The notes under the pieces: model-generated
Databases searched by the model: none
What the model was told of the DNA's origin: nothing
Seen by the model: only the letters and a program-made list of their open reading frames with translations
Origin: Candidatus Bathyarchaeota archaeon
GTDB taxonomy: Archaea; Thermoproteota; CALKCG01; B24
Reading direction: 5' to 3'
DNA length: 64,000 bases
Assembly (NCBI GenBank): GCA_018396755.1
Contig: JAGTQM010000003.1
Span: 1-64,000 of the forward strand
Translations under genes and position numbers: made by a program
Shown here: in pieces, positions 3,204 to 64,000 of the stretch
Layout: every line of letters starts with the position of its first letter
How positions within the stretch are numbered: the stretch's first letter is position 1

Positions 3204-4077
3204 TCAAACCGCTCGATATAACCTAACCATAAGATCTATACAGTCTTGAACAGCCTTTATGTCAATCTCACAGGTGTAGTTCAGGTTTTCCATGGACTTC
3301 TTGATGATATCAGTCGTTACAAGCTCCATCTCTCCGCTTAAGACTTCTAGAACTTCCGGATTTATACCTAAGACGGGTGCCCTTTTCAACTCATTTGTAA
3401 GGATTTCTGCCGCCAAATCGGGGTGCTCATTTATGTATTTTGTTGCTTTCATTGTGACTTTGACCAGCTTTCTTACGACTTCTGGATGATCCTTTATCAA
3501 GTCTTCCTTAACGACTAGGACGCTACCTTGCATATTTGGCCATAAATCTTGACTCATCGCAACAATATGAAATCCTTGGACCTCAGCTAACGTGGCGAAA
3601 AACTCGGGAACAAATGCCGCATCAATTTTTCCGGCGATTAAACTGATTACAGCCATCGGAGGATTCATGCGCCGTACATCTAAATTCTTTAGGTTATATC
3701 GTTCGATCACGAGGTTTAGTAGTAGGTCCGCTTGTGAGCCCTCTGCGACGCATCCTACTATTTTGCCCTCTAGGTCTGCTAGGCTCTTTATCTCAGGCTT
3801 CGCCACTATTGCATAACCATAAAGATGCGTTCCCGCAACGATTTTTATAGGAACGCCGCGCGAATACAATAACAGAGCTGGCCCAAGGCATATATAGGCA
3901 GCCTGAATATCCCCCCCTCGCCACTGCAGATGCTAGCGCCACACCGGTCACATAAGCCTCAAAACAGGTGAGGTTGAGCCCCTCATCTTTAAACCCCCTG
4001 TTTAAGTTTTTTAAAAGTTTAAAAACTTTTCGGTGAAGTCTAGCAAAATTCTTAGGCTTCCCCTTCATATGAGACAT
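3204..4077 (-). pseudogene. NitT/TauT-type (NMT1/THI5-like) solute-binding protein, frameshifted and lacking its N-terminus
   Basis: Two overlapping minus-strand frames form one protein. The first (4077-3793) contains FKDEGLNLTCFEAYVTGVALASAVARG. At a G7 tract (C7 on the plus strand, 3911-3917) the sense continues in the other frame as GDIQAAYICLGPALLLYSRG and runs on to 3204 with typical NMT1-like features (GYAIVAKPEIKSLADLEGK, then KLVKVTMKATKYINEHPD). Removing one G restores the frame. No signal peptide or lipobox precedes the first part; it starts with a basic stretch that does not look like the usual first strand, so the 5' end also seems lost. It lies directly upstream of the permease and was presumably its binding protein. 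Confidence 0.72.
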
Positions 4078-59645: not shown

Positions 59646-60407
59646 TTGGATCGTGGTGCTCCTAGCATATCTGACACCGTCTCCTCAACTATCCGAGAAT
59701 TTAATGAAACTTCCAATATGTTGAGGGACATGCGTATTAAACTTGAAAAGCTTAACCAGTTGATTTCAAGTGGTGAAGTCAGTTCTCAAACAGCCGGGTC
59801 TATTAGAAGAGAATACATGTCTCAGCTCATAGGGCTTCTAGATAGGTTTTTCAAGCTTAGAGCAGAGCTGGAAGACTTAAGAATTAGATGTGTAGTTGAA
59901 ATGGAAAGAGCTAGAGTCGATATTGGTGCAGCAGGCTCTTCAGATATGATATCAAGGCTTGAAGAGCTTACGATACGGATAGATGATGCTTTAGAAGGTC
60001 TAGATATGGATTCTAAACTTTTCATAGCATCTCAATATACTCAATATCTTAAAAGCCCAGATGTAAATCAGAATGCTTTAAAGGAGAAGAAGCTCGTATA
60101 CCGTAGATTTGTCGATTCAATAATTGAAAGTTGGCTTGTAGATAAAGCAGATTTAGAATCGGAGCTATCTGATCTCGAGAAAGAGTCTAATAGTCTTAGA
60201 GAACAGCTTAAAGAACTCTGGGTTAGATTCATGGTTGGTGAGTACGATAGAAGCGAATACGACGTCAAAAGGTCTAGGCTAGAAGAAGAACTATCCTCTA
60301 TGAATACGCGTATTACAGAGCTCAGAAGCAGGTTGGATACAATTGATGAACGGATAATCGAGTTAACAAGTGTAATAGGGGCTGAGGAAGTTGAGGAAAC
60401 TAGTTAG
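59646..60407 (+). CDS. Coiled-coil protein upstream of the giant surface-protein gene
   Basis: The 253-residue protein is almost entirely helical. Heptad-like segments occupy residues 20-90 and 160-245 (ESELSDLEKESNSLREQL, then SRLEEELSSMNTRITELRSRL). Two short matching pieces, SGEVSSQTAGSIRREYMSQL near 38 and GEYDRSEYDVKRSRLEEEL near 201, look like SHOCT-style turn-helix units. No signal or membrane segment occurs, so it is cytoplasmic. I recognise no family; CdvA also combines a coiled coil with small domains but lacks similarity here. It starts with TTG and overlaps the exported protein gene by 17 bp. Confidence 0.6.
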   Translation: MDRGAPSISDTVSSTIREFNETSNMLRDMRIKLEKLNQLISSGEVSSQTAGSIRREYMSQLIGLLDRFFKLRAELEDLRIRCVVEMERARVDIGAAGSSDMISRLEELTIRIDDALEGLDMDSKLFIASQYTQYLKSPDVNQNALKEKKLVYRRFVDSIIESWLVDKADLESELSDLEKESNSLREQLKELWVRFMVGEYDRSEYDVKRSRLEEELSSMNTRITELRSRLDTIDERIIELTSVIGAEEVEETS

Positions 60408-63400
60408 TACTCTAATAGGGATCTTACTGCTATCAGTGCTTTCATCTCTAATTTCTAGTCCTAACTTGGTTGAAGCAGAATCTAAAGTTAATCCAGTACG
60501 AATATACGTAGAGACTCCGTTGAAAATCAAGTATGTTTCTGAGCCTGTTGTTTTCTCCGCTAATTTCTCCTATGGTGAGGCTGCTTTAGGCTCTCTGAGG
60601 CTTTTCGATGAGAGAGATGTGGAAATACCCTATCAAATACTTGAAGCACAGTACTATCCGAACACGCAATATTACAGTTACGCTAAAATCCTAATCTTAA
60701 CAGACGTCTCAAGCAGTATGAATAGAAGCTACACACTCAAATGCTCCCCTAAAACCACCACCCCACCAGACTACACGCAAGCATCCGATTTAATTTTACG
60801 TGAAATCAAATTTAAAAATGGAACAAAAGACATAGTGGTTGAAAACAGCTATTTAAAAGCAGTATTCAGAGTAAATCCAACCCTAGGTCTTTATGCTCTC
60901 TACGATCTCTCCTCAGGTTTAAATGAATCTTTAACCCCATATTCATGGAGCTTCGCATCCCCATGCGTAATGGTAAACAACACATGGCTAGGCATTAAAG
61001 ATATGGAGAACTTAGCCCTATCGATTAAGGTAAATGGGTCTTTAATGGTTGAAATTTCTATGAGTGGCTCTTATCCTGGTGTTTTGGTTGAGAGGATTTT
61101 CAGGTTTTATGCTAATAGCCGATTCTTCGACTTTGAAACAGTATTCACACTCATAGGAGGCTCAGACATTACGGCACTAAGCCCATTCAACACGATGTAC
61201 CGTAAAGGGATTTTCCAGACACTTATCTTATCGAACGGCTCCTCTGTAGACCTCTCCTCGGTGAAGGGATTCTCGTCTTTCAACCCGGGAAATTGGTCTG
61301 CTTTAGCAGGTTTTGATAAGGGTATCTTCGTAACATTGCTTCCGACGGATCTCCTCGGTCGTTTAATTATTGGAACAGAAGTCCCTGGCAATGATATGGT
61401 GATATACCTTGTAGATCCATTTAAGATATCTTCAAGTGTCGGTTTAGCTTTTAAAACAAGGGTCATCATCTTCAAGGGTTCCCCTGATGTAAAAACGCTA
61501 GATGGTGAATATACTAAGTATGCTACGCCACTGATCGTTAAGGTTTTATTACCGAAGGTTCTCTTCAATGTAGAAGGTCCTACGCAAGTCGATATATATG
61601 ATGAGTTTACTATAACGCTCAAAGTCGCGATTCAAACCGAGCTTCAACACATAATTTTAAATGCTTCTTATGGCTCTGGTTTGGAGTGTTTTTCTAAAGC
61701 TGTCTACCGTAGTTCTCTACCAGCTCGTAGTATTTGGACTACTCGCTGGCTATTCCGAGCTAAAGCTGAAGGCACATACAACATAGAATTCACACTATCA
61801 ACATGGAATGAAACGTTCGTCGTCAACTATCCAGTTGGAGTTGTTCTGCCCATTTTAACTCCTCCAGTTAACGTTACGTTTAGAGTCACTGACTTCGACG
61901 GTGAAACAATATTGGGGGATGTCGTCCTTAACATATTTGACAGCGTTAATCGCTCCATTAAAAAACTGTACGTGGACATGTATGGGAATGTAACCACAGC
62001 TCTTCAAATGAGTCGCTATAGAATCCTCCTTTACAAAGCTGAGCGGTTAATAGGATGCAATTATGTGGACGTTTTTCACCCTGAAAACATAACCTTGAAA
62101 ACATGGTTGTACGATTTCAACGTAATAGCGTTAGGTGAAGATGGTGAACCGGCCATAGGGGCTTTAGCCGTTCTGAAACCTTTAAATGGTCTAGATGGTT
62201 CCAAGTATAGAGCTTCCTCAAACTCAAGTGGTATAGCGAGATTCAACGATGTATTTAATGGATCATACGTATTGGAAGTTTTCTGGAGAGATGAATTAGT
62301 TGAAAACACAACTGTGAGCATTCAAAGCGATGAGTATTCGTATAAAACTGTGTTTAACGCATGGCCGATGAAAATAATGGTATCTGCTCCTAAGGATACT
62401 AGGTATGTTTCTGAGCCTGTTGTTTTCTCCGCTAATTTCTCCTATGGTGAGGCTGCTTTAGGCTCTCTGAGGCTTTTCGATGAGAGAGATGTGGAAATAC
62501 CCTATCAAATACTTGAAGCACAGTACTATCCGAACACGCAATATTACAGTTACGCTAAAATCCTAATCTTAACAGACGTCTCAAGCAGTATGAATAGAAG
62601 CTACACACTCAAATGCTCCCCTAAAACCACCACCCCACCAGACTACACGCAAGCATCCGATTTAATTTTACGTGAAATCAAATTTAAAAATGGAACAAAA
62701 GACATAGTGGTTGAAAACAGCTATTTAAAAGCAGTATTCAGAGTAAATCCAACCCTAGGTCTTTATGCTCTCTACGATCTCTCCTCAGGTTTAAATGAAT
62801 CTTTAACCCCATATTCATGGAGCTTCGCATCCCCATGCGTAATGGTAAACAACACATGGCTAGGCATTAAAGATATGGAGAACTTAGCCCTATCGATTAA
62901 GGTAAATGGGTCTTTAATGGTTGAAATTTCTATGAGTGGCTCTTATCCTGGTGTTTTGGTTGAGAGGATTTTCAGGTTTTATGCTAATAGCCGATTCTTC
63001 GACTTTGAAACAGTATTCACACTCATAGGAGGCTCAGACATTACGGCACTAAGCCCATTCAACACGATGTACCGTAAAGGGATTTTCCAGACACTTATCT
63101 TATCGAACGGCTCCTCTGTAGACCTCTCCTCGGTGAAGGGATTCTCGTCTTTCAACCCGGGAAATTGGTCTGCTTTAGCAGGTTTTGATAAGGGTATCTT
63201 CGTAACATTGCTTCCGACGGATCTCCTCGGTCGTTTAATTATTGGAACAGAAGTCCCTGGCAATGATATGGTGATATACCTTGTAGATCCATTTAAGATA
63301 TCTTCAAGTGTCGGTTTAGCTTTTAAAACAAGGGTCATCATCTTCAAGGGTTCCCCTGATGTAAAAACGCTAGATGGTGAATATACTAAGTATGCTACGC

Positions 63401-64000
63401 CACTGATCGTTAAGGTTTTATTACCGAAGGTTCTCTTCAATGTAGAAGGTCCTACGCAAGTCGATATATATGATGAGTTTACTATAACGCTCAAAGTCGC
63501 GATTCAAACCGAGCTTCAACACATAATTTTAAATGCTTCTTATGGCTCTGGTTTGGAGTGTTTTTCTAAAGCTGTCTACCGTAGTTCTCTACCAGCTCGT
63601 AGTATTTGGACTACTCGCTGGCTATTCCGAGCTAAAGCTGAAGGCACATACAACATAGAATTCACACTATCAACATGGAATGAAACGTTCGTCGCAACAT
63701 ATCCTGTGAAAGTGCTATTACCTGTTATAGCGCCGTCTGTTAATATAACGTTCTTTGCCTCAGATTATGATGGTGAAACAGTTATCAGAGATGTCATGCT
63801 TAAACTCGTAAGCCCGGCTGGCATAACTTTGAATCTGCCCATAGGTTCCTCTGGCAACGTGTCCACTAAAATACAAATGGGTCGGTATGAGTGGTATGCA
63901 TATGATGGAAATCAGACGATAGGTAAAGGCATAGTGGAGATTTTCCACCCTGAAAACATCACTTTAAGAACTTGGCTATACGATTTCAACATCATGGTCT
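60391..64000 (+). CDS. Large exported repeat protein, N-terminal part (runs off the window)
   Basis: From TTG at 60391 the frame stays open to the end of the window, more than 1,203 codons, without a stop. Residues 1-30 form a signal peptide (hydrophobic LIGILLLSVLSSLISS, then NLVEAES). The mature protein is built of a repeat of 624 residues. Each repeat has a part of about 430 residues starting YVSEPVVFSANFSYGEAALG, with beta-rich extracellular character, and an Ig-like/carboxypeptidase-regulatory-like part of about 193 residues (DFDGETILGDVVLNIF, HPENITLKTWLYDFNVIAL). Many NxS/T sites suggest glycosylation. I recognise no family; a cell-surface or S-layer-associated role is inference. Confidence 0.75.
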   Translation, partial: MRKLVSTLIGILLLSVLSSLISSPNLVEAESKVNPVRIYVETPLKIKYVSEPVVFSANFSYGEAALGSLRLFDERDVEIPYQILEAQYYPNTQYYSYAKILILTDVSSSMNRSYTLKCSPKTTTPPDYTQASDLILREIKFKNGTKDIVVENSYLKAVFRVNPTLGLYALYDLSSGLNESLTPYSWSFASPCVMVNNTWLGIKDMENLALSIKVNGSLMVEISMSGSYPGVLVERIFRFYANSRFFDFETVFTLIGGSDITALSPFNTMYRKGIFQTLILSNGSSVDLSSVKGFSSFNPGNWSALAGFDKGIFVTLLPTDLLGRLIIGTEVPGNDMVIYLVDPFKISSSVGLAFKTRVIIFKGSPDVKTLDGEYTKYATPLIVKVLLPKVLFNVEGPTQVDIYDEFTITLKVAIQTELQHIILNASYGSGLECFSKAVYRSSLPARSIWTTRWLFRAKAEGTYNIEFTLSTWNETFVVNYPVGVVLPILTPPVNVTFRVTDFDGETILGDVVLNIFDSVNRSIKKLYVDMYGNVTTALQMSRYRILLYKAERLIGCNYVDVFHPENITLKTWLYDFNVIALGEDGEPAIGALAVLKPLNGLDGSKYRASSNSSGIARFNDVFNGSYVLEVFWRDELVENTTVSIQSDEYSYKTVFNAWPMKIMVSAPKDTRYVSEPVVFSANFSYGEAALGSLRLFDERDVEIPYQILEAQYYPNTQYYSYAKILILTDVSSSMNRSYTLKCSPKTTTPPDYTQASDLILREIKFKNGTKDIVVENSYLKAVFRVNPTLGLYALYDLSSGLNESLTPYSWSFASPCVMVNNTWLGIKDMENLALSIKVNGSLMVEISMSGSYPGVLVERIFRFYANSRFFDFETVFTLIGGSDITALSPFNTMYRKGIFQTLILSNGSSVDLSSVKGFSSFNPGNWSALAGFDKGIFVTLLPTDLLGRLIIGTEVPGNDMVIYLVDPFKISSSVGLAFKTRVIIFKGSPDVKTLDGEYTKYATPLIVKVLLPKVLFNVEGPTQVDIYDEFTITLKVAIQTELQHIILNASYGSGLECFSKAVYRSSLPARSIWTTRWLFRAKAEGTYNIEFTLSTWNETFVATYPVKVLLPVIAPSVNITFFASDYDGETVIRDVMLKLVSPAGITLNLPIGSSGNVSTKIQMGRYEWYAYDGNQTIGKGIVEIFHPENITLRTWLYDFNIMV
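60531..61822 (+). repeat. Long direct repeat, copy 1 (1,292 bp)
   Basis: This segment matches 62403-63694 at an offset of 1,872 bp, which is a multiple of three, so both copies are in the same frame. Every row I compared was identical, including synonymous positions. The bases just outside the copies differ. Confidence 0.92.
62403..63694 (+). repeat. Long direct repeat, copy 2 (1,292 bp)
   Basis: The partner of 60531-61822. The copy ends inside codons for ETFV, after which the two repeats continue as clearly homologous but diverged sequence (for example DFDGETILGDVVLNIF against DYDGETVIRDVMLKLV). Confidence 0.92.

Follow-up and report, generated by a model that had tools for sequence, protein, structure and literature searches.

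The window analysed here, 64,000 nt at the start of contig JAGTQM010000003.1 of a Candidatus Bathyarchaeota archaeon (GCA_018396755.1; genome G000), ends within a gene that encodes a 1,523-aa exported, membrane-anchored protein built of two tandem units, each consisting of a front module (R) and a tail (D) (Table 1). The repeat gene, which occupies contig positions 60391-64962 (391-4962 of locus L003), has a reading frame that runs uninterrupted across the two copies and past the end of the window to contig position 64962. The period of the repeat, measured start to start, is 1,872 nt, i.e. the 624 codons that the initial annotation had proposed. The central feature of the gene is a block of exactly 1,292 nt that is the same in the two fronts letter for letter (0 mismatches), with the bases that flank it on both sides differing immediately. 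To the right of the block lies a tail of ~190 codons in which the two copies are homologous at 48% protein and 57% DNA identity; to the left, ~10 codons are still homologous although diverged (RIYVETPLKIK and KIMVSAPKDTR). Identical residues of the tail are encoded by the same codon in about half of the cases, compared with 100% in the block, and the longest identical run in codon-wise shuffles of the G000 copies is 185 nt, compared with the 1,292 nt observed. The original description of DNA-identical segments embedded in repeats, the remainder of which is homologous and strongly diverged, is thus borne out, with sharp ends. Only two places in the whole genome match the block, without a third, and no other repeats of this kind were found in 90 kb of the contig; the composition of the block equals that of the gene. 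For comparison, we used, among others, the sister species of the same genus (G001), two sister genomes from another genus of the same family (G002 and G003) and two genomes from a second family of the order (G005 and G006).

Table 1. Features of the repeat locus (contig positions; rows that reach 64000 are cut by the end of the window).
Feature	Position	Strand	Basis and remarks
Coiled-coil gene, 253 aa; overlaps the beginning of the repeat gene	59646..60407	+	Neighbour and probably partner; similar gene ahead of the repeat gene in G002, G003, G005, G001 and G062
Repeat gene, 1,523-aa exported, membrane-anchored protein	60391..64000, on to contig 64962	+	Open frame; N-terminal hydrophobic stretch visible in the sequence; membrane helix at the C terminus of the model
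Front module R, copy 1, DNA-identical block, likely donor	60531..61822	+	1,292-nt identity; groups with the copy-1 fronts of G002/G003 in trees
Tail D of unit 1 and short left flank of copy 2	61823..62402	+	Identity to tail 2 of 48% (protein) and 57% (DNA)
Front module R, copy 2, DNA-identical block, likely recipient	62403..63694	+	1,292-nt identity; forms a phylogenetic mosaic together with its tail
First part of tail D of unit 2 (on to ~contig 64239)	63695..64000	+	Branches with copy-2 tails of G002/G003 (94/96); beta domains in the model

Sequence searches of Pfam and the PDB with R returned nothing convincing. In the structural model (mean pLDDT 85), the front consists of a string of beta domains and is nearly all beta, and the tail together with the domains that follow it is modelled as small beta domains and then a membrane helix. 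The best Foldseek matches of the front model are GH38 alpha-mannosidases (e.g. 7uft and 2wyi), with E-values of 5e-8 to 1e-7 but TM-scores by query of 0.42-0.54. Mutarotase-like sandwiches also match this model. Given that the model is all-beta, and from what we know of the family, we take the match to involve the C-terminal, non-catalytic beta part (supersandwich) of GH38. Unlike this part of 7uft and 2wyi, its best fold match, the front belongs to an anchored surface protein, shows ~10% identity and no Pfam match, and is accompanied by no visible catalytic domain; across the 1,523 aa, there is no Pfam match to a glycoside hydrolase domain, and the protein is not classed as a GH38 member. To judge by the fold, the protein probably serves at the surface in carbohydrate binding or as a structural element, with no catalytic function. 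Downstream of the repeat gene lies a gene for an FtsX-like permease (L003 4966-8577), as it does in G005 and G006; its counterparts in G002 and G003 sit on a different contig. By eye, the coiled-coil, repeat and permease proteins encoded by this row of three genes all contain or end in similar short helical hairpins, SHOCT-like, which suggests a single membrane complex. When fold and neighbours are taken together, a glycan-binding or glycan-displaying surface part with a membrane partner appears most likely.

The protein is carried by six of the seven genomes of the class that were compared, and the architecture with two units is found in G002 (1,538 aa), G005 (1,561 aa) and G006 (1,560 aa), as well as in G003, where the gene has a frame break. 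Outside the order, the best profile matches are single-unit proteins of ~893-938 aa; the window protein minus one 624-aa unit would be 899 aa long. Because two-unit orthologues are present in another genus and in a second family, with single-unit versions outside the order, the unit was duplicated long ago, either a single time in the order or independently in each of the two families. Single-unit relatives from other families of the phylum (L111-L114, from G062, G211, G287 and G378, respectively) in some cases have a longer front.

Comparison of the same locus in sibling genomes, advised at the outset, revealed smaller identical tracts in the same module of the two-unit orthologues of G002 and G003. 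The G002 fronts are 58% identical in DNA apart from two tracts, 111 and 94 nt long, that match without a single difference, compared with a longest identical run of 39 nt in codon-wise shuffles of these copies. In G003, the copies are identical over 92 nt (gap columns left aside) and over 47 nt; the first stretch coincides in place with the 94-nt run of G002, and the second lies just downstream of the 111-nt run. Within the 94-nt patch, copies 1 and 2 differ by 0 (G002) or 1 (G003) bases, compared with 23-24 differences between the genomes; sites that group the copies by genome are concentrated in two patches of R, whereas elsewhere, including all of D, the grouping is by orthology. The tracts of both genomes are traces of gene conversion, and an assembler would not be expected to create them out of sequences that are 58% alike. 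The 47-nt tract of G003 is nearer to the second copies (6 versus 14 differences to G002), so that here copy 2 was probably copied onto copy 1. Directly after the 92-nt tract, the G003 gene (L018, contig C16, ~3950-4060) carries its frame break, where, relative to G002, copy 1 is without 4 nt and copy 2 without 12 nt, either a repair scar or an assembly error. In G006 (L020), a 25-nt run at the start of the front (residues ~57-65 and 693-701) is identical between the copies and lies close to the left edge seen elsewhere, at a length too short to call.

In phylogenetic trees, the second tail of G000 branches with the copy-2 tails of G002 and G003 (94/96), and a clade uniting both G000 tails is rejected (AU test, p 0.024); the copy-1 tails are not resolved as one clade. 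The shared front of G000, with the concerted patches removed, branches with the copy-1 fronts (95/97), and the alternative that places it outside them is borderline (AU p 0.0502). Since the histories of front and tail conflict, unit 2 of G000 is probably a mosaic that combines a copy-1 front with a copy-2 tail. Accepting the borderline test, copy 1 probably overwrote the front of copy 2; the contrast in divergence that bears on the direction is low (57.8% versus 54.9% DNA identity). The G000 block and the G002 and G003 tracts alike show greater likeness within a genome than between orthologues, with sharp edges, and the flanks have kept their orthologous histories, as seen in the grouping of tail 2 with the copy-2 tails. 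The absence of differences over 1,292 sites bounds the divergence within the block at <0.23%, compared with 8.3% over 5.5 kb between G000 and the sister species, which makes the conversion recent.

We therefore favour, as a good deal more probable than not, an old tandem duplication followed by recent intragenic gene conversion of R, unit 1 over unit 2. The old duplication gave the surface-anchored protein its pair of tandem units, each made of a front and a tail, and homologous recombination would recently have copied R of unit 1 onto R of unit 2, leaving 1,292 nt identical and the tails still different. The agent would presumably be RadA-type homologous recombination between nearby repeats. 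Before the event, the sequences may have been only ~58% alike, which would make conversion across them difficult for homologous recombination, unless the fronts had been kept alike by earlier conversion. In the alignment, the left edges of the block and of the 111-nt tract of G002 are 8 columns apart, whereas the right edge sits within the final hairpin of the front, at the turn leading into the last strand of its third domain, rather than on a domain boundary. A single repair event via shared islands would fit these edges, and so would recurrent conversion by which the front stayed whole. Of the initial proposal that gene conversion maintains one part of the repeat, the conversion stands, given the independent tracts in relatives and the conflicting trees of front and tail; upkeep by selection is not supported.

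The alternatives that survive best concern the assembly. The G000 genome comes in 74 contigs; among those sampled, lengths of 3-5 kb are frequent and some ends have repeats in common, which suggests an assembly from short reads; contigs under ~3 kb are absent. The relatives bear out the arrangement front, tail 1, front, tail 2; an error could lie in the sequence of the second front. Short-read assemblers merge near-identical branches, and fronts that were near-identical after a somewhat older conversion could have been collapsed into one sequence that was then used twice. The short contigs and the repeats shared by their ends are compatible with this possibility, which we consider unlikely; nothing specific speaks against it, but conversion would remain the cause and only its date would shift. 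Less likely again, the real second front could be different, with the assembler having passed through copy 1 twice via short identical islands. Such islands of ~100 nt exist in the relatives, and the resemblance of the shared front to copy 1 is also what this artefact would produce; however, an identical island would be required at both edges, and G002 has a left and a middle one but none at the right. Moreover, no orphan second front is present in the genome, a point weakened by the absence of contigs under ~3 kb. The word length of the assembler, estimated from contig ends, has no clean answer for G000, and one exact 123-nt overlap in G001 suggests ~124. Contig C122 of the sister species ends 140 nt into the block, as is possible at an exact repeat, an end that is suggestive only; identical blocks of this kind may break short-read genomes.

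Returning to gene conversion, the occurrence of tracts at overlapping places in two genera, with a nearly common left edge, might reflect a recombination hotspot or selection for identical fronts, a reading to which we give a slim chance, slightly below that of the assembler having passed through copy 1 twice; if true, a surface module would be kept uniform or reshuffled regularly. The initial suggestion that one part of the surface is held uniform by selection and another diversifies finds no support, because front and tail copies diverge equally where conversion has not acted: outside the tracts, the G002 fronts are 58.2% and the tails 57.1% identical in DNA. Between the orthologues of G002 and G003, fronts are 81% and tails 81-86% identical. 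With equal divergence outside the tracts and orthologous tails as conserved as the fronts or more so, selection on the tail is not needed, and diversifying selection on it is not supported; the mosaic appears to mark where conversion acted, not a faster tail. An identical stretch within diverged repeats hence need not imply selection on the diverged part. Domain cassette exchange, also raised initially, fares no better: a cassette from elsewhere is not supported, given the absence of a third genomic copy, a right edge that lies within a hairpin, off the domain border, and the composition of the block, which is that of the gene. The pattern of identical fronts and different tails, taken alone, would agree with a recent duplication of the entire unit and subsequent fast divergence of the tail under selection, but this reading is hardly credible given the two-unit orthologues in other genera, the rejected clade of both G000 tails, the strong divergence of silent positions in the tail as well, and orthologous tails that evolve no faster than the fronts.

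Intragenic conversion in G000 is a clean, recent instance of an ordinary, known process, here acting between tandem modules of an archaeal surface protein, with smaller tracts at overlapping sites in relatives. A literature search for gene conversion in Bathyarchaeota returned nothing relevant. Between the genes for the bacterial release factors RF1 and RF2, as in the repeat gene, conversion transfers a domain from one ancient paralogue to the other, the remaining parts retain separate histories, and the direction of this domain-wide conversion is opposite in different lineages (PMC4530459); unlike RF1/RF2, the G000 paralogues are tandem units within one archaeal gene, and the copy is too recent to have accumulated differences. 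In the CEACAM family (PMC7042247), too, a part of the gene is homogenised within the genome while other parts escape, but these are separate mammalian genes for which selection on the mature protein has been inferred, whereas front and tail of the repeat gene diverge equally where conversion is absent. In Haloferax volcanii, gene conversion is efficient and involves many recombination proteins (PMC11276520); there it takes place between chromosome copies, in contrast to the repeats of a single gene in G000.
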